A stretch of DNA of 64,000 bases from Pseudomonas alcaliphila JAB1 (GTDB lineage: Bacteria > Pseudomonadota > Gammaproteobacteria > Pseudomonadales > Pseudomonadaceae), in assembly GCF_001941865.1 (NCBI RefSeq), contig NZ_CP016162.1, positions 186,001-250,000 on the forward strand. Direction: 5' to 3'. Positions 3,423-44,162 of this stretch are shown piece after piece (within the stretch, counting starts at the first letter, position 1; the number at the start of each line of letters is the position of its first letter). The position numbers were made by a program, and so were the translations under genes. The notes below the pieces were generated by a model that saw nothing but the letters and a program-made list of their open reading frames with translations, made no database searches and was not told the origin of the DNA.

Positions 3423-4640
3423 TCACGCCATGGCCTCTTCGACTATTTCGATCCAGTGCCTTACCGGCGTACGCCCGGCGCCGTCCAGATGGGTCTGGCA
3501 GCCGATGTTGGCGGTGACGATGGCGTCCGGTTTGCCGCTTTCCAGGGCATTGAGCTTGTTGTCGCGCAGCTGGCGTGACAGCGCCGGCTGGGTCAGCGAA
3601 TAGGTGCCGGCCGAGCCGCAGCACAGATGGCTGTCCGGCACGGCAGTCAGGCCGAAACCGAGGCGCGTCAGCACGCCTTCAACAGCGCCGCCGAGCTTCT
3701 GTGCATGCTGCAGGGTGCAGGGGCAATGGAAGGCCAGGCGCTGCTCGGCGCGTACCTGCAACTGCTCCAGTGGCTCACTTTGCAGCACCTCGACCAAATC
3801 CTTGGCCAGGGCGCTGATCCGCGCCGCCTTGGTCGCGTACGCCGGGTCGCTGGCGAGCAGGTGGCCATAGTCCTTGACGAAGGCGCCGCAGCCGCTGGCG
3901 GTCTGCACGATGGCTTCGGCGCCGGCCTCGATGGCCGGCCACCAGGCGTCGATGTTCTGCCGGGCGCGTTGCAATCCGGCTTCCTGGGCGTTGAGGTGAT
4001 AGTCCACGGCGCCGCAGCAGCCGGCCTCGCGGATTGGCGTGACACTGATGCCCAGACGATCCAGCACGCGCGCGGTGGCGGCGTTGGTGTTGGGCGACAG
4101 CCCCGGCTGCACGCAGCCTTCGAGCATCAACACGCGGCGCGCATGCTGCTGCGTCGGTCGCGGTTTGGCCGGGCGAATCTCGCGCGGCAGCTTGGCCTTG
4201 AGCGCGGCCGGCAGCAGAGGGCGCAGGGCCAGGCCAGTCTGGGTCAGCGTCTTGAACAGCGCCGGACGTGGCACCACGGCGCGCAGGCCCTGACGCAGCA
4301 GGCGTTCGTTCAGTGGCCGCGGCACCGCCTGCTCGACCACTTCGCGGCCGATATCCAGCAGATTGTGGTACTGCACGCCGGACGGGCAGGTGGTTTCGCA
4401 GTTGCGGCAGGTCAGGCAGCGATCCAGGTGCTGTTGGGTCTTGGCCGTGACTTCGTTGCCTTCGAGCATCTGCTTGATCAGGTAGATGCGCCCACGCGGG
4501 CCGTCCAGCTCGTCGCCGAGCAACTGATAGGTCGGGCAGGTGGCGTTGCAGAAGCCGCAATGCACGCAGGAGCGCAGGATGCGTTCGGCTTCCTCGGCGC
4601 GCGGCAGGCGTTTGGCCTGTTCACTCAAATTGGTCTGCAC
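3423..4640 (-). CDS. glcF: Glycolate oxidase iron-sulfur subunit
   Basis: A 405-residue subunit that carries electrons from the flavin subunits GlcD and GlcE to the membrane quinone pool. The N-terminal ferredoxin-like domain has two 4Fe-4S ligand sets, CVHCGFCNATCP at about residues 26-37 and CLTCRNCETTCP at about residues 75-86. Two CCG (cysteine-rich) domains follow, with EAGCCGAVDYHL and SHLCCGSAGTYSL. The start codon is GTG; GAGG lies eight bases before it, inside the end of glcE, whose stop is three bases upstream. That tight spacing implies translational coupling. All expected cysteines are present, and the length is that of the family. Confidence 0.97.
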   Translation of the reverse strand: MQTNLSEQAKRLPRAEEAERILRSCVHCGFCNATCPTYQLLGDELDGPRGRIYLIKQMLEGNEVTAKTQQHLDRCLTCRNCETTCPSGVQYHNLLDIGREVVEQAVPRPLNERLLRQGLRAVVPRPALFKTLTQTGLALRPLLPAALKAKLPREIRPAKPRPTQQHARRVLMLEGCVQPGLSPNTNAATARVLDRLGISVTPIREAGCCGAVDYHLNAQEAGLQRARQNIDAWWPAIEAGAEAIVQTASGCGAFVKDYGHLLASDPAYATKAARISALAKDLVEVLQSEPLEQLQVRAEQRLAFHCPCTLQHAQKLGGAVEGVLTRLGFGLTAVPDSHLCCGSAGTYSLTQPALSRQLRDNKLNALESGKPDAIVTANIGCQTHLDGAGRTPVRHWIEIVEEAMA

Positions 4641-4643
4641 GTC

Positions 4644-5699
4644 TTATACCTCGGCGTACATGCGGCCAGGGTTGAAAATACCCTGGGGGTCGAGCTGGTT
4701 CTTCAGCTGGCGCTGGTAGCGCAGCAGCGGTGCAGCCAGCGGCTGGAAAGGTTGCGCCTGGCCGGCAGCGAAGCAGGTGGCGTGGCCGCCGAGCTTGGCC
4801 GTTACGCGCTGGATCAGCTCGCCATCGGCGTCCGTCTTGAGCCAGCGCTGCGCGCCGCCCCAGTCGATCATCTGGCGGCCGGGCAGGTCGAGCAGACCAC
4901 TGTTGGCTGGCAGAGACAGACGCCACAGCGTGCCGCTGGCGCTGAAGAACGGTAGGCGCTGTTCGCGCAGTTCATGCCAGTAGCCGTTGTCGATCTCTTC
5001 GCCACCGAGGCGTTGGCGCGCGGCCTGAACCGAGCCTTCGCCACCCTCCAGGCGCAGGTGCAGCGCCGCGCCGTCGTGGCTGGCGGCGCTGATCGGCAGC
5101 GGCTGCTGGCCCCATTCGGCGAGCTTGTTCAGGGCATGCAGGGCGTCCACTTCCAGGCGCAGGCTGAGTACCTGACGCGGTTTGGGCAGCACCTTGATCG
5201 ACACCTCGGCGAGCAGGCCGAGGCAGCCGAAGCTACCGGCCATCAGGCGCGACAGGTCGTAGCCGGCGACGTTCTTCATCACCTCGCCGCCGAAGCGCAG
5301 CAGCTTGCCCTGGCCGGTGATAACACGGGTGCCGAGCACCTGGTCGCGCACCGAACCGGCCCAGGGCCGGCGCGGTCCGGACAGCCCGGTGGCGACCATG
5401 CCGCCCAATGTGGCGCCATCGCCCAGGTGCGGCGGCTCGCAGGGCAGCATCTGGTTGTTGGCTTCCAACGCTGCCTCGATCTCGCTGAGCGGCGTGCCGG
5501 CCCGGGCGGTGAGTACCAACTCGGTGGGGTCATAGCTGACGATGCCGCGATGCAGGCGGGTATCCAGCACTTCGCCCGTGGTGGCACGACCCAGGTGGGC
5601 CTTGCTGCCGCTGCCCTGGATGCGCAGCGGCGTGGCACTGTTCAGTGCGTGGTTGACTTGTTCCAGCAACGCGGCGCTGGCGTCGAAATCATGCGACAT
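4644..5699 (-). CDS. glcE: Glycolate oxidase FAD-binding subunit GlcE
   Basis: A 351-residue FAD-binding protein of the FAD_binding_4 (PCMH) fold and the second flavin subunit of the glycolate oxidase complex. Key stretches are VLTARAGTPLSEIEAALE, GDGATLGGMVATGLSGPRR and GGEVMKNVAGYDLSRLMAG, the last being a GlcE hallmark. An open frame runs further upstream into glcD, but the MSHDFD start is chosen because it overlaps the glcD stop in a TGATG arrangement typical of coupled subunit genes. It is shorter than GlcD because it lacks the long C-terminal FAD-oxidase domain, as expected. Confidence 0.96.
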   Translation of the reverse strand: MSHDFDASAALLEQVNHALNSATPLRIQGSGSKAHLGRATTGEVLDTRLHRGIVSYDPTELVLTARAGTPLSEIEAALEANNQMLPCEPPHLGDGATLGGMVATGLSGPRRPWAGSVRDQVLGTRVITGQGKLLRFGGEVMKNVAGYDLSRLMAGSFGCLGLLAEVSIKVLPKPRQVLSLRLEVDALHALNKLAEWGQQPLPISAASHDGAALHLRLEGGEGSVQAARQRLGGEEIDNGYWHELREQRLPFFSASGTLWRLSLPANSGLLDLPGRQMIDWGGAQRWLKTDADGELIQRVTAKLGGHATCFAAGQAQPFQPLAAPLLRYQRQLKNQLDPQGIFNPGRMYAEV

Positions 5700-35469: not shown

Positions 35470-37869
35470 GTGAACCACGCGGTCCACAACAAACTGGTTT
35501 CTTTCATCTGGTCGATTGCCGACGACTGTCTGCGTGATGTGTATGTGCGTGGCAAGTATCGCGACGTTATCCTGCCCATGGTGGTGTTGCGCCGCCTGGA
35601 TGCCCTGCTGGAGCCGACCAAGCCCAAGGTGATGGAAGAGCTGGCCTTCCAGCGCAGCGCCATGAGCACTACCGAGCTGGACGATAGCGCCCTGCGCGCG
35701 GCATCAGGCTACGTGTTCTACAACATCAGCAACTGGACGCTGAGCCAGCTCTACAAGACCGCCACCAACAACCAGCAGATTCTCCAGGCTAACGTCGAGG
35801 AATACCTCGACGGCTTCAGCGACAACGTCAAGGACATCATCCGCCGCTTCAACCTCAAGGCCCAGGTGCGCCACATGGCCAGCAAGGACGTGCTGCTGGA
35901 CGTGCTGGAGAAGTTTACCTCGCCCTATATCAACCTCACCCCCGCAGACGCGGAAGACCCCAAGGGCAACCGCCTGTCAGCCCTGAGCAACCTGGGCATG
36001 GGCTACGTCTTCGAGGAGCTGATCCGCAAGTTCAACGAAGAGAACAACGAAGAGGCCGGCGAACACTTCACCCCGCGCGAAGTGATCGAACTGATGACTC
36101 ACCTGGTCTTCGACCCGATCAAGGATCGCCTGCCCAACGTCATGACCATCTACGACCCGGCCTGCGGCAGCGGCGGCATGCTCACCGAGTCGCAGAACTT
36201 CATCGAGGAGAAGTACCCCGCGCAGGGCACCACGCGCGATGTCCACCTGTACGGCAAGGAAATCAACGACGAGACCTATGCCATCTGCAAGTCGGACATG
36301 ATGATCAAGGGCAACAACCCGGCCAACATCCGCCCCGGTTCCACCCTGTCGGTGGACGAGTTTGCCGGCAGCCGTTTCGATTTCATGCTGTCCAACCCGC
36401 CTTACGGCAAGAGCTGGGCCAGCGAGCAGAAATTCATCAAGGACGGCGGCGATGTCATCGACCCGCGCTTCAAGGTCAGCCTCGCAGACTACTGGGGCAA
36501 CCTGGAGATGCAGGACGCCACCCCGCGCTCCAGCGACGGCCAACTGCTGTTCCTCATGGAAATGGTCAGCAAGATGAAGGCACCAGGCGACAGCGGCCTC
36601 GGCTCGCGCATCGCCTCGGTGCACAACGGCTCCAGCCTGTTCACCGGCGACGCTGGCGGCGGCGAGAGCAATATCCGCCGTTACCTGATCGAGAACGACC
36701 TGCTCGACGCCATCATCCAGTTGCCCAACAACCTGTTCTACAACACCGGCATCACCACCTACATCTGGCTGCTGTCGAGCAACAAACCGGCGCAGCGCCG
36801 GGGCAAGGTGCAACTGATCGACGCCAGCCTGCTCTACCGCAAGCTGCGCAAGAACCTCGGCAACAAGAACTGCGAGTTCGCCCCCGAGCATATCGAGCAG
36901 ATCACCCAGACCTACCTTGACCTCGCCAGCATCGACCGCCCGGCTGGCGGCGACGGCATTGCCGCGCAGGTGTTCGACAACCGCGATTTCGGCTACCACA
37001 AGGTCAGCATCGAGCGGCCAGACCGGCGCAAGGCGCAGTTCAGTGCCGAGCGCATCGAAACCCTGCGCTTCGACAAGGCTCTGCGCGAGCCCATGCAGTG
37101 GATCTACCAGCAGTGGGGCGAAGCGGTGTACCAGGACGACACCCTGGCCCAGCACGAGAAAGCCATTCTCGCCTGGTGCGAAGAGCAAGGCCTGGAGCTC
37201 AACACCAAGCACCGCAAGAAGCTGCTGAGCCTGGAAACCTGGGCCAAGCAATCGCTGCTGTTTACCGTAGCCAACTACCTGATGCAGGCCATCGGCCACG
37301 AGGAGTTCGACGACTTCAACCTGTTCGCCAAACTGGTGGACAAGGTGCTCAAGCAACTGGGCAAGGACGCCGGCATCAAGCTCGCCGCCAGCGAGCGCAA
37401 CCAGCTGCTCAATGCCGTGAGCTGGTACGACGAAAACGCCGCCAAGGTCATTCGCAAGGTGGAGAAGTTCGACCGCGCCGAACTGGCTGCGCTGCTCGGC
37501 CGCTTGGGCTGTAATGAAGTCGACCTACCGGATTTCGGTTACTACCCGAGCGACAAGGCTGGCGAATTTATCACCTACGAGCCCAACAGCGACCTGCGCG
37601 ACAGCGAAAGCATCCCCCTGGCCGATTCCATCCACCGCTTCTTCAAGGCCGAAGTGCAGCCCCATGTGGCAGAAGCCTGGATCAATCTGGAGTCGGTAAA
37701 GATCGGCTACGAGATCAGCTTCAATAAATACTTCTACAAGCATCAGCCACTGCGCAGCATGGAAGAGGTGGCGCGGGAGATCGTGGCGCTGGAGCAGCAG
37801 GCGGAAGGGTTGATTGCGGAGATTTTGGGGCTGGATGTCGCCGAACTGTCGGGTGCTAGTCATGGCTAA
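35470..37869 (+). CDS. hsdM: Type I restriction-modification DNA methyltransferase subunit HsdM
   Basis: A 799-residue N6-adenine methyltransferase from a GTG start (GGAG lies eight bases upstream). The N-terminal HsdM_N domain covers about residues 1-150 (HNKLVSFIWSIADDCLRDVY), and the N6_Mtase domain about 170-480. It has motif I YDPACGSGGML near residue 229 and the catalytic NPPYG near residue 309. The C-terminal extension of about 300 residues (YHKVSIERPDRR, LLSLETWAKQSLLF) is longer than the usual 500-residue HsdM and is seen in a subset of type I systems. It overlaps hsdS by eight bases. It methylates the target site and pairs with HsdS in the M2S1 core. Confidence 0.96.
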   Translation: MNHAVHNKLVSFIWSIADDCLRDVYVRGKYRDVILPMVVLRRLDALLEPTKPKVMEELAFQRSAMSTTELDDSALRAASGYVFYNISNWTLSQLYKTATNNQQILQANVEEYLDGFSDNVKDIIRRFNLKAQVRHMASKDVLLDVLEKFTSPYINLTPADAEDPKGNRLSALSNLGMGYVFEELIRKFNEENNEEAGEHFTPREVIELMTHLVFDPIKDRLPNVMTIYDPACGSGGMLTESQNFIEEKYPAQGTTRDVHLYGKEINDETYAICKSDMMIKGNNPANIRPGSTLSVDEFAGSRFDFMLSNPPYGKSWASEQKFIKDGGDVIDPRFKVSLADYWGNLEMQDATPRSSDGQLLFLMEMVSKMKAPGDSGLGSRIASVHNGSSLFTGDAGGGESNIRRYLIENDLLDAIIQLPNNLFYNTGITTYIWLLSSNKPAQRRGKVQLIDASLLYRKLRKNLGNKNCEFAPEHIEQITQTYLDLASIDRPAGGDGIAAQVFDNRDFGYHKVSIERPDRRKAQFSAERIETLRFDKALREPMQWIYQQWGEAVYQDDTLAQHEKAILAWCEEQGLELNTKHRKKLLSLETWAKQSLLFTVANYLMQAIGHEEFDDFNLFAKLVDKVLKQLGKDAGIKLAASERNQLLNAVSWYDENAAKVIRKVEKFDRAELAALLGRLGCNEVDLPDFGYYPSDKAGEFITYEPNSDLRDSESIPLADSIHRFFKAEVQPHVAEAWINLESVKIGYEISFNKYFYKHQPLRSMEEVAREIVALEQQAEGLIAEILGLDVAELSGASHG

Positions 37870-39211
37870 TGCATTAGTAGGGGATACCAAATACAGCACT
37901 TATAAATATTCTGGGCTGGAGTGGCTTGGCAGTATTCCAAGCCACTGGGAAGTCAAAGCGCTCAAGCATGGTGCCACCATTGTTTTAGGTAAGATGCTCT
38001 GTCCCGAAAACAAGGGCGGGTATTTTTTACGGCCATATTTGAAATCAAAGAATATTCAGTGGTTGAATGCAGAAACATCCTCCGTTGATGAGATGTGGTT
38101 CTCAAAGGGAGAGATGGAGCTGTATCGTTTAAAAAAGGCCGACCTAGTGCTAAGCGAGGGAGGCGAAGTAGGCAAGACGTGCTATTGGAATGAAGAGCTG
38201 CCTGAATGCTATATCCAAAATTCGGCCCATAGGGTACGTTTTTTTAAAGGCCATAACCCTAGGTATTTCTTATATCAATTTTTTTCGGCAGGAAACATTG
38301 GGTACTTCGATTCAATAGTCAACAGAGTAAGTATTGCGCATTTAACCCGAGAAAAATTAGCCAATACAAATTTCGCTTTTCCTACTGAACAGGAGCAGGC
38401 GGATATCGCCCATTTTCTTGATCAGCAGTCGGTTCAAATTGATGCAGTAATACAGATCAAAGAACGCCAAATTGAACTGCTGAAAGAACGCAAGCAGATA
38501 TTGATCCAGCAGGCCGTAACCCGTGGCCTTGATCCGCATGCACCTATGCGCGATTCCGGTATCGAATGGATTGGTGAGATTCCGGCGCATTGGCAGGCGC
38601 GACGATTCAAGTACCTTTTTTCACAGAGCCAGTTACCTGTGCGCTCTGGTGACGGCGTCGTTACCTCGTATCGTGATGGGCAGGTGACTCTGCGCTCCAA
38701 TCGCCGTCTGTCAGGTTATACGGAAGCGATTCTTGAGGGTGGCTATCAAGGTGTTCGTAAAGGCCAGTTGGTGTTGAACTCAATGGATGCCTTTGAAGGA
38801 GCCATTGGCGTTTCGGAGTCCGATGGTAAATGCACCCCGGAGTATGTCGTTTGTGACTCGCTCTCCGATGAGTACTTGCCCGAATATTTCGCCTATCTGC
38901 TCAGGGAAATGGCGCTGGCTCGTTATATCCAGGTGATCTGCAACGCGGTTCGCCAGCGAGCCGTCCGCATCCGTTTCAATAACCTGGCTTCCCGCTTTAT
39001 GGTGGTTCCGCCGATTGAAGAGCAGCGAGCTATCGTTGCGCACATCAAGGCCGAAGCGGAAAAGCAGGAGGCTGCCGTGGCGTTGCTGGAGCAGCAAATC
39101 ACCAAACTCAAGGAATACAAGGCCACCCTGATCAATAGTGCCGTGACCGGCAAGATCAAGGTGCCGGGTGTGGTGGAGCCAACCGAGATCGAGGAACGGG
39201 AGATCGCCTGA
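37862..39211 (+). CDS. hsdS: Type I restriction-modification specificity subunit HsdS
   Basis: A 449-residue DNA-recognition subunit with two target-recognition domains and two conserved helical spacers. TRD1 starts GLEWLGSIPSHWEVKALKHG and is followed by the coiled-coil EQEQADIAHFLDQQSVQIDA. TRD2 starts DSGIEWIGEIPAHWQARRFK and is followed by EEQRAIVAHIKAEAEKQEAA. The region of TRD1 is visibly AT-rich against its neighbours, a sign of recent exchange. Its start lies inside the end of hsdM and its stop overlaps the next gene in a TGATG arrangement, so the three genes are translationally linked. The recognition sequence cannot be predicted. Confidence 0.96.
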   Translation: MANALVGDTKYSTYKYSGLEWLGSIPSHWEVKALKHGATIVLGKMLCPENKGGYFLRPYLKSKNIQWLNAETSSVDEMWFSKGEMELYRLKKADLVLSEGGEVGKTCYWNEELPECYIQNSAHRVRFFKGHNPRYFLYQFFSAGNIGYFDSIVNRVSIAHLTREKLANTNFAFPTEQEQADIAHFLDQQSVQIDAVIQIKERQIELLKERKQILIQQAVTRGLDPHAPMRDSGIEWIGEIPAHWQARRFKYLFSQSQLPVRSGDGVVTSYRDGQVTLRSNRRLSGYTEAILEGGYQGVRKGQLVLNSMDAFEGAIGVSESDGKCTPEYVVCDSLSDEYLPEYFAYLLREMALARYIQVICNAVRQRAVRIRFNNLASRFMVVPPIEEQRAIVAHIKAEAEKQEAAVALLEQQITKLKEYKATLINSAVTGKIKVPGVVEPTEIEEREIA

Positions 39212-40680
39212 TGAGCGTTGAGCGCGACCTGAGCTATCTGCAATCGCTGTTGCGGGAGCTGTGCGCGCTGCCGCAGGAAACCGAGTGGGTGGAGTTCAAG
39301 CAGGATAACGACGATGTTCCGCTGATTGGCGAATACATCTCCGCCCTGGCCAATGCCGCCGCCCTGCTTGGCAAGGAGTACGGCTACCTGCTGTGGGGCA
39401 TCGACGATGCCAGCCATGCCGTGATCGGCACGGCCTTCAAGCCTTCCACCGCACGTCATAAGCAGCAGGAGCTGGAGAGCTGGTTGCTGCAGAAGACCAC
39501 GCCGAAGATTCACTTCCGCTTCTTCGAGTTCGTCTCCGCCGAGGGGCTGCCGGTGGTGATCCTGGAAGTCCAGGCGGCTCGCCATACGCCGGTGCAGTTC
39601 GATGGCGTCGAATATATTCGCGTCGGCTCCTACAAGAAGAAGCTGCGCGAGTTTCCGGAAAAGGAGCGGGCGCTCTGGCGCGTGTTCGACCGTGTGCCCT
39701 TCGAGCAGCAACTGGCCGTGCAGAACCTCGGCATCGACCAGGTGCTCAAGCTGCTCGATTATTCGGCCTACTTCGACCTCACCCACCAGCCCCTGCCGGA
39801 AGGCCGTGAGGCGATCCTCGCTGCGCTGGCGGCAGACCGCATGATCCAGCGCAGTGACAGTGGGCAATGGCATATCTGCAACCTGGGCGCGATCCTCTTC
39901 GCCAAGCGTCTGCAGGACTTCCCCGTGCTAGGACGCAAGGCCGTGCGGCTGATTCACTACAAGGGCAACGGCAAGCTGGAAACCCTGCGCGAGCTGACTG
40001 GCAACAAGGGCTATGCCCTGGGCTTCGAGGGCTTGATCGACATCCTGAAAACCCTGCTGCCGGCCAACGAGGAAATCGGCAAGGCGTTCCGCCAGGAAGT
40101 GCCGATGTATCCGGAGCTGGCCCTGCGTGAGCTGGTGGCCAACGCCATCATCCACCAGGACTTCAATCTGAGCGGCACCGGGCCGATGATCGAGTTGTTC
40201 GAGCGCCGCCTGGAAATCACCAACCCCGGCGTGCCGCTGGTCGACCCGCAGCGCTTTCTCGACAGCCCGCCGCGCAGTCGCAACGAGGGGCTGGCCTCCT
40301 TCATGCGCCGCATCGGCATCTGCGAGGAACGTGGCAGCGGCATCGACAAGGTGGTGGCGCAGACCGAGCTGTACCAGCTACCGGCGCCGATCTTCGAACA
40401 GACCGACGAGCACACCCGTGTGGTGCTGTTCGCCCATCAGGACTACCGCGACATGGGCCAGGAGGATCGTATTCGTGCCTGCTATCAGCACTGCTGCCTG
40501 AAGTACGTGAACCGCGAACCGATGAACAACACCTCGTTGCGTCAGCGCTTCCAAATCGACGAAGGCAATAGCGCCATGGTCAGCCGAATCATCAAGCAGA
40601 CCATCGAGGCGGGGTTGATCCGTTTGTATGATCCGGCTGCCAACCGCAAGGCTTATCGTTATGTGCCCTGCTGGGCCTGA
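39211..40680 (+). CDS. AlbA_2/Schlafen-type ATPase-like regulator within the hsd operon
   Basis: A 489-residue protein of the COG2865 group. Residues about 20-140 form an AlbA_2 (Schlafen-like) domain (TEWVEFKQDNDDVPLIGEYI, LANAAALLGKEYGYLLWGID, DGVEYIRVGSYKKKLREFPE). Residues about 290-400 form an HATPase_c_4 domain with LRELVANAIIHQDFNLSG near residue 307 and ICEERGSGIDKV near residue 373. The C-terminal 80 residues look like a winged helix (NNTSLRQRFQIDEGNSAMVS). Members are found near type I systems as accessory proteins, and roles in regulation or defence are proposed. The start overlaps the hsdS stop by one base. It may act at the repeats just downstream. Confidence 0.88.
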   Translation: MSVERDLSYLQSLLRELCALPQETEWVEFKQDNDDVPLIGEYISALANAAALLGKEYGYLLWGIDDASHAVIGTAFKPSTARHKQQELESWLLQKTTPKIHFRFFEFVSAEGLPVVILEVQAARHTPVQFDGVEYIRVGSYKKKLREFPEKERALWRVFDRVPFEQQLAVQNLGIDQVLKLLDYSAYFDLTHQPLPEGREAILAALAADRMIQRSDSGQWHICNLGAILFAKRLQDFPVLGRKAVRLIHYKGNGKLETLRELTGNKGYALGFEGLIDILKTLLPANEEIGKAFRQEVPMYPELALRELVANAIIHQDFNLSGTGPMIELFERRLEITNPGVPLVDPQRFLDSPPRSRNEGLASFMRRIGICEERGSGIDKVVAQTELYQLPAPIFEQTDEHTRVVLFAHQDYRDMGQEDRIRACYQHCCLKYVNREPMNNTSLRQRFQIDEGNSAMVSRIIKQTIEAGLIRLYDPAANRKAYRYVPCWA

Positions 40681-40755
40681 CCGATCTCATTTGACGGTCA
40701 TTTGACTGGCGCACTCTTGGCGGCAGGGAAATCAGGCCAAAGGCCCAGGTTTTAG

Positions 40756-40847
40756 GCGCTTGCCGGCATGCCGCTCATTTGCCGGCCATTTGACTGAATG
40801 TCTAGCGCTAGACGAATAAGCCGATTCGTTAGACATTCGGCAAGCGC
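40756..40847. repeat. Nested inverted repeat 1 before hsdR
   Basis: Three tiers share one centre: GCGCTTGCCG (40756-40765) with CGGCAAGCGC (40838-40847), GAATGTCTA (40796-40804) with TAGACATTC (40830-40838), and ACGAAT with ATTCGT around AAGCCG. Confidence 0.7.
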
Positions 40848-40918
40848 TCAGCCCGCTTCACTACTGGCTGCGATGCCAGGTAAATCAGTGGGTTAGTGGT
40901 GGTTCAGGTAGGTGATGG

Positions 40919-40960
40919 CAAATGTCTAAGCCCTTCCTGGCCAAATGGTTTAGACATTTG
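40919..40960. repeat. Inverted repeat 2 before hsdR
   Basis: CAAATGTCTAA (40919-40929) pairs perfectly with TTAGACATTTG (40950-40960). The half-site ATGTCTA is shared with the nested repeat 80 bases upstream. It lies 58 bases before the hsdR start. Confidence 0.75.
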
Positions 40961-41017
40961 TACCCCGCGCCGGGCGAGCCTGGCGCAGGCAAGAAGGACA
41001 GGCACAAGGAAGCTGGC

Positions 41018-44000
41018 ATGGTAAGCAAGACCAACGAACGGGCGCTGGAAGCCAGCATCGAGAAGTATCTGACGGGCACCTGCCTGGAAGAGTTGGCGGC
41101 TGTTCGCGAGGATGCCGCCGAGCAACCCTTCAGTGCCAACCATGGCTATCGCCTCGGGCGCGCCCAGGATTTCAATGCCCGCTACGCGGTCGATACCCGT
41201 GTGCTTTGGCAGTTTCTGCAGGACAGCCAGAGTGAAGCGCTGGATTGCCTCAAGCAGCGCTACAGCGATTGGGATTTGCGCATCCTGGAGCGTTTCGACC
41301 GCCTGGTGAGCAAGTACGGCGTGCTGCACCTGCTCAAGCGCGGCCTGGCCATCGACGATGTACACCTCGACCTGATGTACCCGGCGCCGCTGGCCAATAG
41401 CTCGCAACGAATCAAGCAGCAGTTCGCCGCCAATATCTTCAGCAGCACGCGCCAGGTGCGCTACTCCCTGAGCAATACGCTGGAAGAGCTGGATATGGTG
41501 CTCTTCATCAACGGCCTGCCCTTCGCCACCCTGGAACTGAAGAACCCCTGGACGGGACAGACAGCCCGCTATCACGGTCAGAGGCAGTACAAGCAGGAAC
41601 GTGACAGCAGCCAGCCGCTGCTGCAGTTTGGCCGCTGCCTGGTGCACATGACGGTGGATACCGACGAGGTCTATATGACCACCCGGCTGGCGGGCGCCGC
41701 GACCTTCTTCCTGCCGTTCAACAAGGGGCGCAACCACGGTGCCGGCAACCCACCGAACCCCGACGGGCATCGCAGCGCCTATCTGTGGCGGGAGATTTTC
41801 AGTCGCGAGAGCGTGGCCAACATCATTCAGCATTTCGTGCGTATGGATGGCAGTAGCAAGACACCGCTGGCCAAGCGCACGCTGTTCTTCCCGCGCTATC
41901 ACCAGCTCGATGTGGTGCGCCGCCTGGTGAAGCACGCCAGCGAGCAAGGTGTGGGGCAGCGTTATCTGATCCAGCATTCGGCGGGCTCGGGGAAGTCCAA
42001 CTCGATTACCTGGGCGGCTTATCAGTTGATCGAAACCTACCCGGCCTCACTGGCGGTTGCTGGCGCGCGGGCGTTGAGCGAGCCGTTGTTCGACTCGGTG
42101 ATCGTGGTGACTGACCGCCGCCTGCTGGACAAGCAGTTGCGCGAGAACATCCGCGAGTTCTCCGAGGTGAAGAACATCGTCGCACCGGCGCTGAAGTCCG
42201 CCGATCTCAAGCAGGCCTTGGAGCAGGGCAAGCGCATCATCATCACCACCATCCAGAAGTTCCCGGTGATCGTCGATGGCATCGACGACATGGCGGGCAA
42301 GCGCTTCGCCGTGATCATCGACGAGGCGCACAGCTCGCAGGATGGCAGCGCCCACGGAACGATGAACCGGGTGATGGGTGGCGCCGAGCTGGATGACACG
42401 CAGGAGAAGATCCTCAGCGCCATCAAGAAAAGCAAGATGCGTGGCAATGCCTCCTACTTCGCCTTCACCGCCACGCCTAAGAACAGCACGCTGGAGAAGT
42501 TCGGCGAGCGGCAGGCCGGTGGCCGCTTCGAGCCCTTCCACCTGTATTCGATGAAGCAGGCCATCGAGGAGGGCTTCATTCTCGACGTGTTGGCCAACTA
42601 CACGACCTATCGCAGCTATTACGAGATCAAGAAATCTATTCAGGACAACCCGCTGTTCGACAAGCTGAAGGCGCAAAAGAAGCTGCGTGCCTATGTCGAG
42701 CGCGACCAGCAGACCATCGATGCCAAGGCAGAGATCATGCTGGAGCACTTCATCGATCAGGTCGTCACGCCGAAGAAGCTCAAGGGCCAGGCCAAGGGCA
42801 TGGTCATCACCCAGAACATCGAGGCTGCCGTCCGTTACCACAAGGCCATCAGCCGCCTGCTGGCGGAGCGCGACAAGCCGTTCAAGGCGCTGATTGCTTT
42901 TTCCGGGGAGAAGCTGGTCGATGGTATTGAGTACAGCGAAGCGCAGATCAATGGCTTTCCCGAAGCCGATACGCGGGATCACTTCGATACCGAGCAATAC
43001 CGCCTGCTGGTGGTGGCCAACAAATACCTGACCGGCTTCGACCAGCCCAAGCTGTGTGCCATGTACGTGGACAAAAAGCTGCAGGACGTCCTAGCCGTAC
43101 AGGCGCTGTCGCGCCTCAATCGCTCGGCGCCCAAATGGGGTAAGAAAACCGAGGATCTGTTCGTGCTCGACTTCTTCAATGAAGTGGACGCCATCAAGCA
43201 ATCCTTCGATCCGTTCTACACCGCAACCAGCCTGTCGCGCGCGACGGACATCAACGTGTTGCACGAGCTCAAGGATCAGCTTGACGAGGTGGGTGTGTAT
43301 GAATGGCCCGAGGTGGAAGCGTTCGCCAGGCAATACTTCGACAATGTCGAGGCGGGCCAGCTAGGTGTGTTGATCGATGTAGCCGTCGAACGCTTCGATC
43401 ATGAGCTGGCGTTGGAGGAAGAGGCCAAGATCGACTTCAAGATCAAGGCCAAGCAGTTCGTGAAGATCTATGGCCAGATGGCTTCGATCATGCCCTATGA
43501 GATCGTTGCCTGGGAAAAGCTGTTCTGGTTCCTCAAGTTCCTGATCCCCAAGCTCAAGGTGCAGGACAAGGACGCCGATGAGATCGATGCCCTGCTCAAC
43601 TCTGTCGATTTGGCGTCCTACGGGCTGGAGCGGGTCAAGCTCAACCACCAGATCGTGCTGGATGAGGCGGATACCGAACTGGATCCGGCGAACCCTAACC
43701 CGCGTGGGATTCATGGTGGTGATGAGGACAAGGATCCGCTGGATGAGATCATCCACACCTTCAACGAGCGCTGGTTCCAGGGTTGGGGTGTGACCACCGA
43801 GGAAAAGCGGGTGAAATTTCTCAGCATCCTCAAGGGCATTCAGGAACACCCGGACTTCGAGGCCAAGTACCAGCAGAGCCATGACAACGACCACAAGAAT
43901 CTGGCGTTCGAGAAAATTTTCGATGAGGTGATGTTGATGCGTCGCCGCCAGGACTTGGAGCTGTATCGACTGGTGGCTAGCGATGCGGCCGTCCGGTCTA

Positions 44001-44035
44001 CGCTGCAACAAGGTTTGCGCGGGCTTTTGGGATAG
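41018..44035 (+). CDS. hsdR: Type I restriction enzyme motor/nuclease subunit HsdR
   Basis: A 1005-residue restriction subunit. The N-terminal nuclease domain has D159, E173 and K175 in [17 protein letters not shown], a full PD-(D/E)xK set. The SF2 helicase core has Walker [11 protein letters not shown] near residues 320-328, DEAH box [11 protein letters not shown] near residue 435, [13 protein letters not shown] and later [21 protein letters not shown] helical C-terminus binds HsdM/S. AAGGA lies seven bases before the ATG used. All catalytic residues are present, so the system looks active. Unlike hsdM and hsdS, the gene is separated by a large repeat-rich gap and so probably has its own promoter. 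Confidence 0.96.
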
Positions 44036-44085: not shown

Positions 44086-44162
44086 TGGCGCACTCGGCGG
44101 GATTCGAACCCACGACCCCTGCCTTCGGAGGGCAGTACTCTATCCAGCTGAGCTACGAGTGC
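44086..44162 (-). tRNA. tRNA-Arg (anticodon CCG)
   Basis: On the minus strand a 77-base cloverleaf is seen: acceptor GCACTCG paired with CGAGTGC, encoded CCA end, D arm GCTCAGCTGGATAGAGC-like, anticodon stem CTGCC/GGCAG around CTCCGAA (anticodon CCG, reading CGG), and T loop GTTCGAATC. tRNA-Arg genes are common landing sites for mobile islands; the restriction island abuts its 3' end. Confidence 0.95.

Follow-up and report, generated by a model that had tools for sequence, protein, structure and literature searches.

In type II restriction-modification systems, a small regulator gene encodes the C protein, repeated operators lie before the nuclease gene, and the nuclease is timed to appear after the methyltransferase. 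C proteins are small Xre-type helix-turn-helix proteins with operators before their own gene. The lac, gal and ara repressors use operators that lie whole turns apart, and a bending protein aids some of their loops. Schlafen RNases such as SLFN11 and SLFN13 carry three acidic catalytic residues. One report on type I systems describes their transcription control as little known, assigns two promoters to EcoKI, and records a lag of one hour in hsdR transcription after subculture (PMC12707154). Proteins that combine Schlafen, HisK and wHTH domains occur next to BREX-type loci; they have been recorded from at least 1017 taxa and are interpreted as RNases (PMC12839542).

The window discussed here is a 64,000-nucleotide stretch of the genome of Pseudomonas alcaliphila JAB1 (5.34 Mb, a single contig), and it contains a type I hsd locus with the following features:

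35470..37869, plus strand: hsdM, type I N6-adenine methyltransferase (N6_Mtase, HsdM_N; PADLOC MTase_I)
37862..39211, plus strand: hsdS, specificity subunit (Methylase_S; ATG start at 37862 read directly)
39211..40680, plus strand: AlbA_2 (Schlafen) + HATPase_c_4 + predicted C-terminal winged helix, the proposed regulator (PF04326, PF13749)
40688..40706, plus strand: site A, tandem CATTTGAC pair with an 11-bp period, beginning 7 nt past the AlbA_2 stop
40776..40794, plus strand: site B, the other CATTTG(C/A)C pair, lying 88 bp beyond site A
40799..40814, no strand assigned: TGTCTA / TAGACG half-sites of the type-2 AlbA_2 kind
40830..40835, no strand assigned: TAGACA half-site
40883..40895, plus strand: IHF-like box AATCAGTGGGTTA, one mismatch to WATCAANNNNTTR, which we take to be the IHF consensus
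40919..40960, no strand assigned: inverted repeat TGTCTA-N22-TAGACA with perfect 11-base arms CAAATGTCTAA/TTAGACATTTG (40919-40929 / 40950-40960)
41018..44035, plus strand: hsdR, restriction/translocase subunit (HSDR_N, SWI2_SNF2, ResIII; AAGGA precedes the ATG at 41018)

The first three genes overlap, by 8 nt between hsdM and hsdS if the latter begins at the ATG at 37862 and by 1 nt between hsdS and AlbA_2, while hsdR stands apart, as the original prediction had described. A gap of 337 bases (40681-41017) separates the AlbA_2 stop codon (40678-40680) from the hsdR ATG at 41018. An alternative in-frame ATG for hsdR lies at 40922, within the second inverted repeat, and by direct reading the ribosome-binding sequence is better at 41018. 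Among the best 80 of 581 HsdR relatives, the closest are from Pseudomonas. On the minus strand, a gene for tRNA-Arg (ccg) at 44086-44162 begins 50 bp past the hsdR stop, and the hsd locus may be an island inserted at this gene.

The locus resembles the C-protein systems in having a proposed regulator gene tied to a restriction-modification locus and repeated putative operators before the nuclease gene. However, the system is type I, the protein is an AlbA_2-HATPase (Schlafen-ATPase) with a predicted winged helix rather than a small Xre-type protein, and the sites are phased direct repeats that lie past the stop codon of that protein's own gene. Like the operators of the lac, gal and ara looping repressors, the putative operators of the window are spaced in whole turns, but here they are tandem 11-bp direct repeats and the gene for the proposed regulator immediately precedes the proposed loop. 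BrxR and CapW, as presented in the available portions of their reports, are transcription regulators encoded with defence loci, as is proposed for the AlbA_2 protein, but they are WYL regulators with a different sensor domain (PMC9122589, PMC9122588). The Schlafen-HisK-wHTH proteins of BREX and BREX-related systems apparently share the domain order of the window protein, namely Schlafen, a minimal histidine-kinase ATPase and wHTH, and the accessible text describes them as RNase effectors, with no cognate DNA sites in that text (PMC12839542). A literature search, which extended to few subscription papers and not to bioRxiv, found no description of the sites reported here.

The repeats in the gap are as predicted. 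CATTTG(A/C)C is found at 40688, 40699, 40776 and 40787, in two pairs with 11-bp spacing within each, and a genome-wide search with TTTGAYNGNCATTTGAY at up to one mismatch returned these two pairs and one 1-mismatch site elsewhere. The pair-to-pair repeat exceeds that in 200 dinucleotide shuffles (p=0.005). The two predicted inverted repeats of ATGTCTA/TAGACAT, one a nested set spanning 40796-40848 and the other with the perfect 11-base arms, are the only places in the 5.34 Mb genome that match ATGTCTA-N5..30-TAGACAT, and the reversed control pattern gave 0 matches. A sigma-70 promoter scan of the gap gave no promoter-like site, and a plasmid search with the gap DNA as query gave a single partial match to 18% of the query.

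In the alignment that the original prediction proposed as a check, the half-sites are better kept than the remaining gap in five of six relatives; the sixth, L084, is 95% identical over the entire gap, and its half-sites and remainder do not differ significantly. Taken separately, the type-2 half-sites are conserved above the remaining gap in L003, L005, L006 and L004 (p 0.0009-0.03), and show no significant excess in L085 or L084. The HsdS of the window is only 37-42% identical over aligned parts to those of L003, L005 and L006, yet the CATTTGAC and TAGACA sites are unchanged.

Comparison of loci indicates that the repeats are part of a recurring architecture tied to the upstream AlbA_2–HATPase–winged-helix gene and not to hsdR. 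Among the best 80 of 581 HsdR relatives, 4 of which have less than 200 nt upstream, TTGAY-N6-TTGAY was sought in the 450 nt before hsdR and found in 7 of the 9 loci that have an orthologous AlbA_2 gene vs 3 of the 66 that lack one (Fisher p=2e-6). When 260 nt are considered the counts are 3/9 and 3/66 (p=0.02), because the pair sits near the AlbA_2 end in longer gaps. Repeats of the same plan follow AlbA_2 homologues of other genomes, plasmids and phages, across phyla, whatever gene is downstream. In L086 the HsdR encoded downstream is distant (34% identity over 402 residues), in L121 and L099 the downstream genes are hsdS and a methyltransferase, and in L120 the system is not type I, with a PLD-helicase beside a DUF1156 gene.

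To the eye, remains of an AlbA_2 3′ end directly precede the repeat in two of the three TTGAY loci without AlbA_2, L017 and L020. The AlbA_2 gene appears deleted or broken, with the 3′ repeat array kept wholly or partly, in these two loci (about 4700-5000) as well as in L034 (about 4090-5000) and L004 (about 4550-5000). In the last of these, from P. parafulva, the AlbA_2-like remnant is a short N-terminal fragment and site bases are altered, again by eye.

Statistics were taken over 57 non-redundant AlbA_2 loci. From 69 AlbA_2 matches, L034, whose match ends at residue 208, and 9 duplicates (of the loci of the window, G112 and G043) were subtracted and the window added, giving 60; near-duplicates L084 and L138 and the short L110 were then removed. 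A direct repeat with copies 40-200 nt apart (sites A and B), sought within 260 nt past the AlbA_2 stop, was found in 32 loci at p<=0.005 and in 37 at p<=0.05. The corresponding counts in control regions, from which those shorter than 200 nt or containing N were skipped, are 2/60 and 7/60 upstream of hsdR without AlbA_2, 1/54 and 2/54 at +400 to +660 downstream of AlbA_2, and 0/57 and 3/57 in the last 260 nt of the gene. The remaining 20 of the 57 loci have p>0.05, and six of these (L107, L111, L112, L143, L145, L147) have no site by eye; L143, L145 and L147 are distant AlbA_2 homologues.

Self-similarity at a lag of 11 in the first 60 nt past the AlbA_2 stop is seen in 28 of the 57 loci vs 0.3 in shuffles, and other lags from 5 to 30 are seen in 0-4 loci. 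Among the best 80 of 581 HsdR relatives, the 60 nt downstream of hsdR stops show lag 11 in 0 of 79 cases, and where this AlbA_2 is absent the 260 nt before hsdR show it in 5 of 66, with lag 10 equally in 5; three of those five lag-11 loci are the TTGAY loci L017, L020 and L048. Site A starts 0-31 nt past the AlbA_2 stop in the 34 loci where it can be placed, and within 400 nt upstream of AlbA_2 no such site was found in the 31 loci tested.

The distance between sites A and B is likewise regular. For this analysis, L101 and L137, which contain long tandem duplications, were left out of the 37 loci with p<=0.05, and L131 and L105, whose best repeat lies elsewhere than site A, were retained (n=35). 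The distances are 64, 66 (four loci), 71, 76 (two), 77, 78, 79, 87 (four), 88 (three), 89 (two), 98 (two), 99 (six), 100 (two), 110 (two), 126, 132 and 147 bp. They cluster near multiples of 11 bp (66, 77, 88, 99, 110), with R=0.748 at a period of 11.0 bp (Rayleigh p about 3e-9) and a best period of 11.25. Clustering of the proteins at 90, 75 and 65% identity leaves 30, 22 and 12 loci with simulated p of 0.0002, 0.0002 and 0.005; at 55% identity the phasing is not significant (n=4, p 0.72). Spacing in helical-repeat steps, as expected of a looping array, is thus found across the 35 loci, and in vivo DNA loops are compatible with steps near 11 bp. In the family with single-copy sites of the GTG..GCAAA kind, the distance is 66 in L106, L142 and L144 but 126 in L134. 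L135, of the TTATTTCAT kind, has 66 as well. The stretches that separate the sites show no similarity at lag 11, so a decayed 11-bp tandem array was rejected as the cause of phasing.

The two kinds of repeat in the gap go with different AlbA_2 families. In a second (type-2) AlbA_2 family, found with Halomonas L009 as query, the 3′ end of the gene itself carries tandem TAGACA in L009, L092, L148 and L149. Tandem lags of 10-11 at p<=0.02 occur in 7 of 13 type-2 loci, namely these four and L150, L151 and L155, whose units are other than TAGACA; L152, L153, L154 and L158 have no tandem lag, and L156 and L157 a weak lag of 12. Because the ATGTCTA/TAGACAT elements of the window match the sites of this second family, the gap reads, on sequence comparison, as a mosaic in which a type-1 gene and type-1 sites are followed by type-2 sites closer to hsdR, and Halomonas has the mirror image of this combination of gene and sites. 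The original prediction had inferred that a regulator binds in the gap, and named the AlbA_2/winged-helix protein and host factors for a binding test. A DNA-binding regulator, and specifically the AlbA_2/winged-helix protein, gains support from the conservation of half-sites and from the recurrence of repeats after AlbA_2 across phyla; a single regulator for both kinds of repeat does not survive, in that CATTTGAC goes with the AlbA_2 type encoded here and TAGACA with the other family. The genome has no type-2 AlbA_2 gene at E<=1e-80 even though it keeps the TAGACA sites. These may be relics of a type-2 AlbA_2 gene that was once present, or some other protein may still use them. Across seven Pseudomonas genomes, TAGACA pairs gave 7 matches, 3 of them in hsd loci, vs 45 for the reversed pattern.

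Both domains of the AlbA_2 protein score above curated cut-offs (PF04326, 68.6 bits against 25.3; PF13749, 75.9 bits against 26). AlphaFold predicts a C-terminal winged helix at residues 417-486 (block pLDDT 79-89), with helices 417-433, 440-447 and 451-466 and strands 470-472 and 484-486, in a model whose overall pTM is low (0.41) and whose residues 338-409 are poorly predicted. MarR-type matches are weak (E above 0.07). The protein is predicted to fit a winged-helix regulator fold, with putative DNA binding.

Site sequence tracks residues 436-489 of the protein. Over 35 loci (the 37 with p<=0.05 without L131 and L105), the Mantel correlation of site similarity with protein identity is 0.62 for the AlbA_2 domain, 0.64 for the middle, 0.63 for the HATPase, 0.68 for the C-terminus and 0.70, the highest of the five regions, for the recognition helix and wing. 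With the three other regions controlled for, the C-terminus keeps a partial correlation of 0.34; with the C-terminus controlled for, the values are 0.25 for AlbA_2 and 0.20 for HATPase. Pairs of loci are not independent, and all of these values are descriptive. A short PRAGY wing accompanies CTTGATCGGGTTTTGAT sites, and a TRY(A/V)(R/K)Y wing accompanies GTG..GCAAA sites.

The IHF-like box is a further recurrent element. Exact WATCAANNNNTTR occurs in the first 160 nt past the AlbA_2 stop in 10 of 57 loci vs 0.7 expected, and with up to one mismatch in 30 vs 13 expected. In 8 of the 10 the exact box begins between both copies of the locus's best repeat, the exceptions being L105 and L119; in L102, L109 and L146, with the box between copies, the best repeat itself is not significant. 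The window has no such box between sites A and B; in Pseudomonas loci it sits between TAGACA elements, and by reading it is exact in L085 and L005. IHF would presumably bind there.

The reading we prefer, to which we give a probability of roughly 0.6, is that the AlbA_2 protein binds the phased operators and loops the DNA over the hsdR promoter region; its binding, the looping and the direction of control are what we infer from sequence. The gap would be an operator array for the regulator encoded just upstream, the C-terminal winged helix of which would bind the 11-bp direct repeats. Protein at A and at B would meet on one face of the DNA and close a loop with the help of IHF, and this loop would cover hsdR's own promoter region and separate expression of restriction from that of hsdM-hsdS-AlbA_2. 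ATP binding or phage sensing via the HATPase and Schlafen domains would open it. Against this reading stand the negative promoter scan, the position of the window's IHF-like box outside the A-B interval, the loci without the repeat or without a recognised restriction gene, the lag-11 matches before hsdR in loci lacking this AlbA_2, the loss of significant phasing at 55% identity, and the retention of TAGACA sites in a genome with no type-2 gene at E<=1e-80. The safest statement is that the sites would be cognate DNA sites of AlbA_2 first, because 15 of the 35 repeat loci have no recognised restriction gene directly downstream; control of hsdR in the window is a best guess, made because of the position of the sites. 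The proposed purpose of delaying the nuclease until the DNA is methylated finds no support here; the scan gave no promoter-like site in the gap, and similar sites occur without a recognised downstream restriction gene.

These counts refer to genes directly downstream on the same strand, several of them called from ORF positions or record annotation instead of a Pfam scan. In 20 of the 35 loci the gene that follows has to do with restriction, modification or a related function; counted here are a fragment in L116 and, in L122 and L123, a gene whose only match is to a repeat domain but which is flanked by a DNA methyltransferase gene and a GIY-YIG gene. In the 15 loci without a recognised restriction or modification gene is counted L106, which was scanned in the wrong frame. 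L126 has a DHH-family gene, L104 an AAA ATPase, L139 and L140 transposase genes, and L097 hsdM-hsdS upstream and, about 600 nt downstream, a gene for a DUF1016/PDDEXK nuclease; none was found in the stretch examined, mostly by ORF positions, for L100, L101, L103, L128, L129, L130, L132, L137 and L141.

The presence of the sites behind AlbA_2, whether or not a restriction gene is recognised nearby, would also fit a docking platform rather than an hsdR operator, from which a parked Schlafen-type RNase/ATPase is released on infection, the nearness of hsdR being secondary. E23 and E28 are invariant across 35 aligned sequences, a fold search matches the protein to the N-domains of SLFN11/13/14, and the available part of PMC12839542 treats the Schlafen-HisK-wHTH proteins beside BREX as backup RNases. 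However, the third acidic position, 66, is D in the window but N in L012, L022, P0014 and P0028, and in the 20 loci above AlbA_2 is followed, on the same strand, by a gene related to restriction or modification; we regard docking as unlikely. The mobility of AlbA_2 cassettes through recombination or element-end sequences at the repeats is suggested by the apparent swapping of type-1 and type-2 genes and sites between Pseudomonas and Halomonas and by the tRNA-Arg gene after hsdR, but the sites are on one side of AlbA_2 only, with none up to 400 nt upstream in 31 loci, which makes this account very improbable.

AlbA_2/Schlafen domains can bind RNA, and the start of the sites 0-31 nt past a stop codon in 34 loci would suit a 3′ UTR or leader element that is bound by AlbA_2 or folds as a riboregulator. 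Against this, the IHF box and the spacing of 66-110 bp in steps near 11 bp speak for DNA, and we give an RNA element very little credence. Identity with an RNA family was rejected, as the single Rfam match (E 0.44) is far below cut-off and outside the gap. Recognition sites of the system's own enzymes, the methylation of which would gate hsdR, might be imagined from the downstream nuclease gene and the bipartite look of the pairs. This is scarcely plausible, since the repeat is found behind AlbA_2 in a setting other than type I as well, and self-methylation sites were rejected because HsdS diverges while the sites stay the same.

If the looping reading is right, many hsd loci and defence loci related to them gain a proposed regulator, binding site and looping geometry. 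A Schlafen-type protein that is a common neighbour, and that is at present regarded as an RNase effector, acquires a role at the level of DNA, and a protein-to-site code becomes readable and open to testing. More tentatively, and with some doubt, AlbA_2-HATPase-winged-helix proteins might form a broad class of switches that loop DNA at anti-phage loci and have cognate phased sites just behind their own gene. A single protein would then combine an ATP sensor with a Schlafen RNase-like domain and would control a DNA nuclease, and gene swapping would leave operator mosaics such as that of the window.

One AlbA_2 relative was found in viral contigs and four in phage records, two of which were examined. 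The homologue of Burkholderia phage Musica (L146) shares the CTTGATCGGGTTTTGAT site, and its IHF-like box is exact. A Hymenobacter plasmid (L141) has a very different repeated site, CCAATAAGGG(T/C)C, after the stop of a distant AlbA_2 homologue that adjoins an N-6 DNA methylase. In L101, site and spacer are tandemly tripled as a 56-bp unit in the 203 nt after the AlbA_2 stop. L085 and L003 have a third CATTTGAC about 75 bp beyond site B (compared with 40776-40814 of the window), and it looks as if the window has lost about 80 bp between two CATTTGAC repeats.
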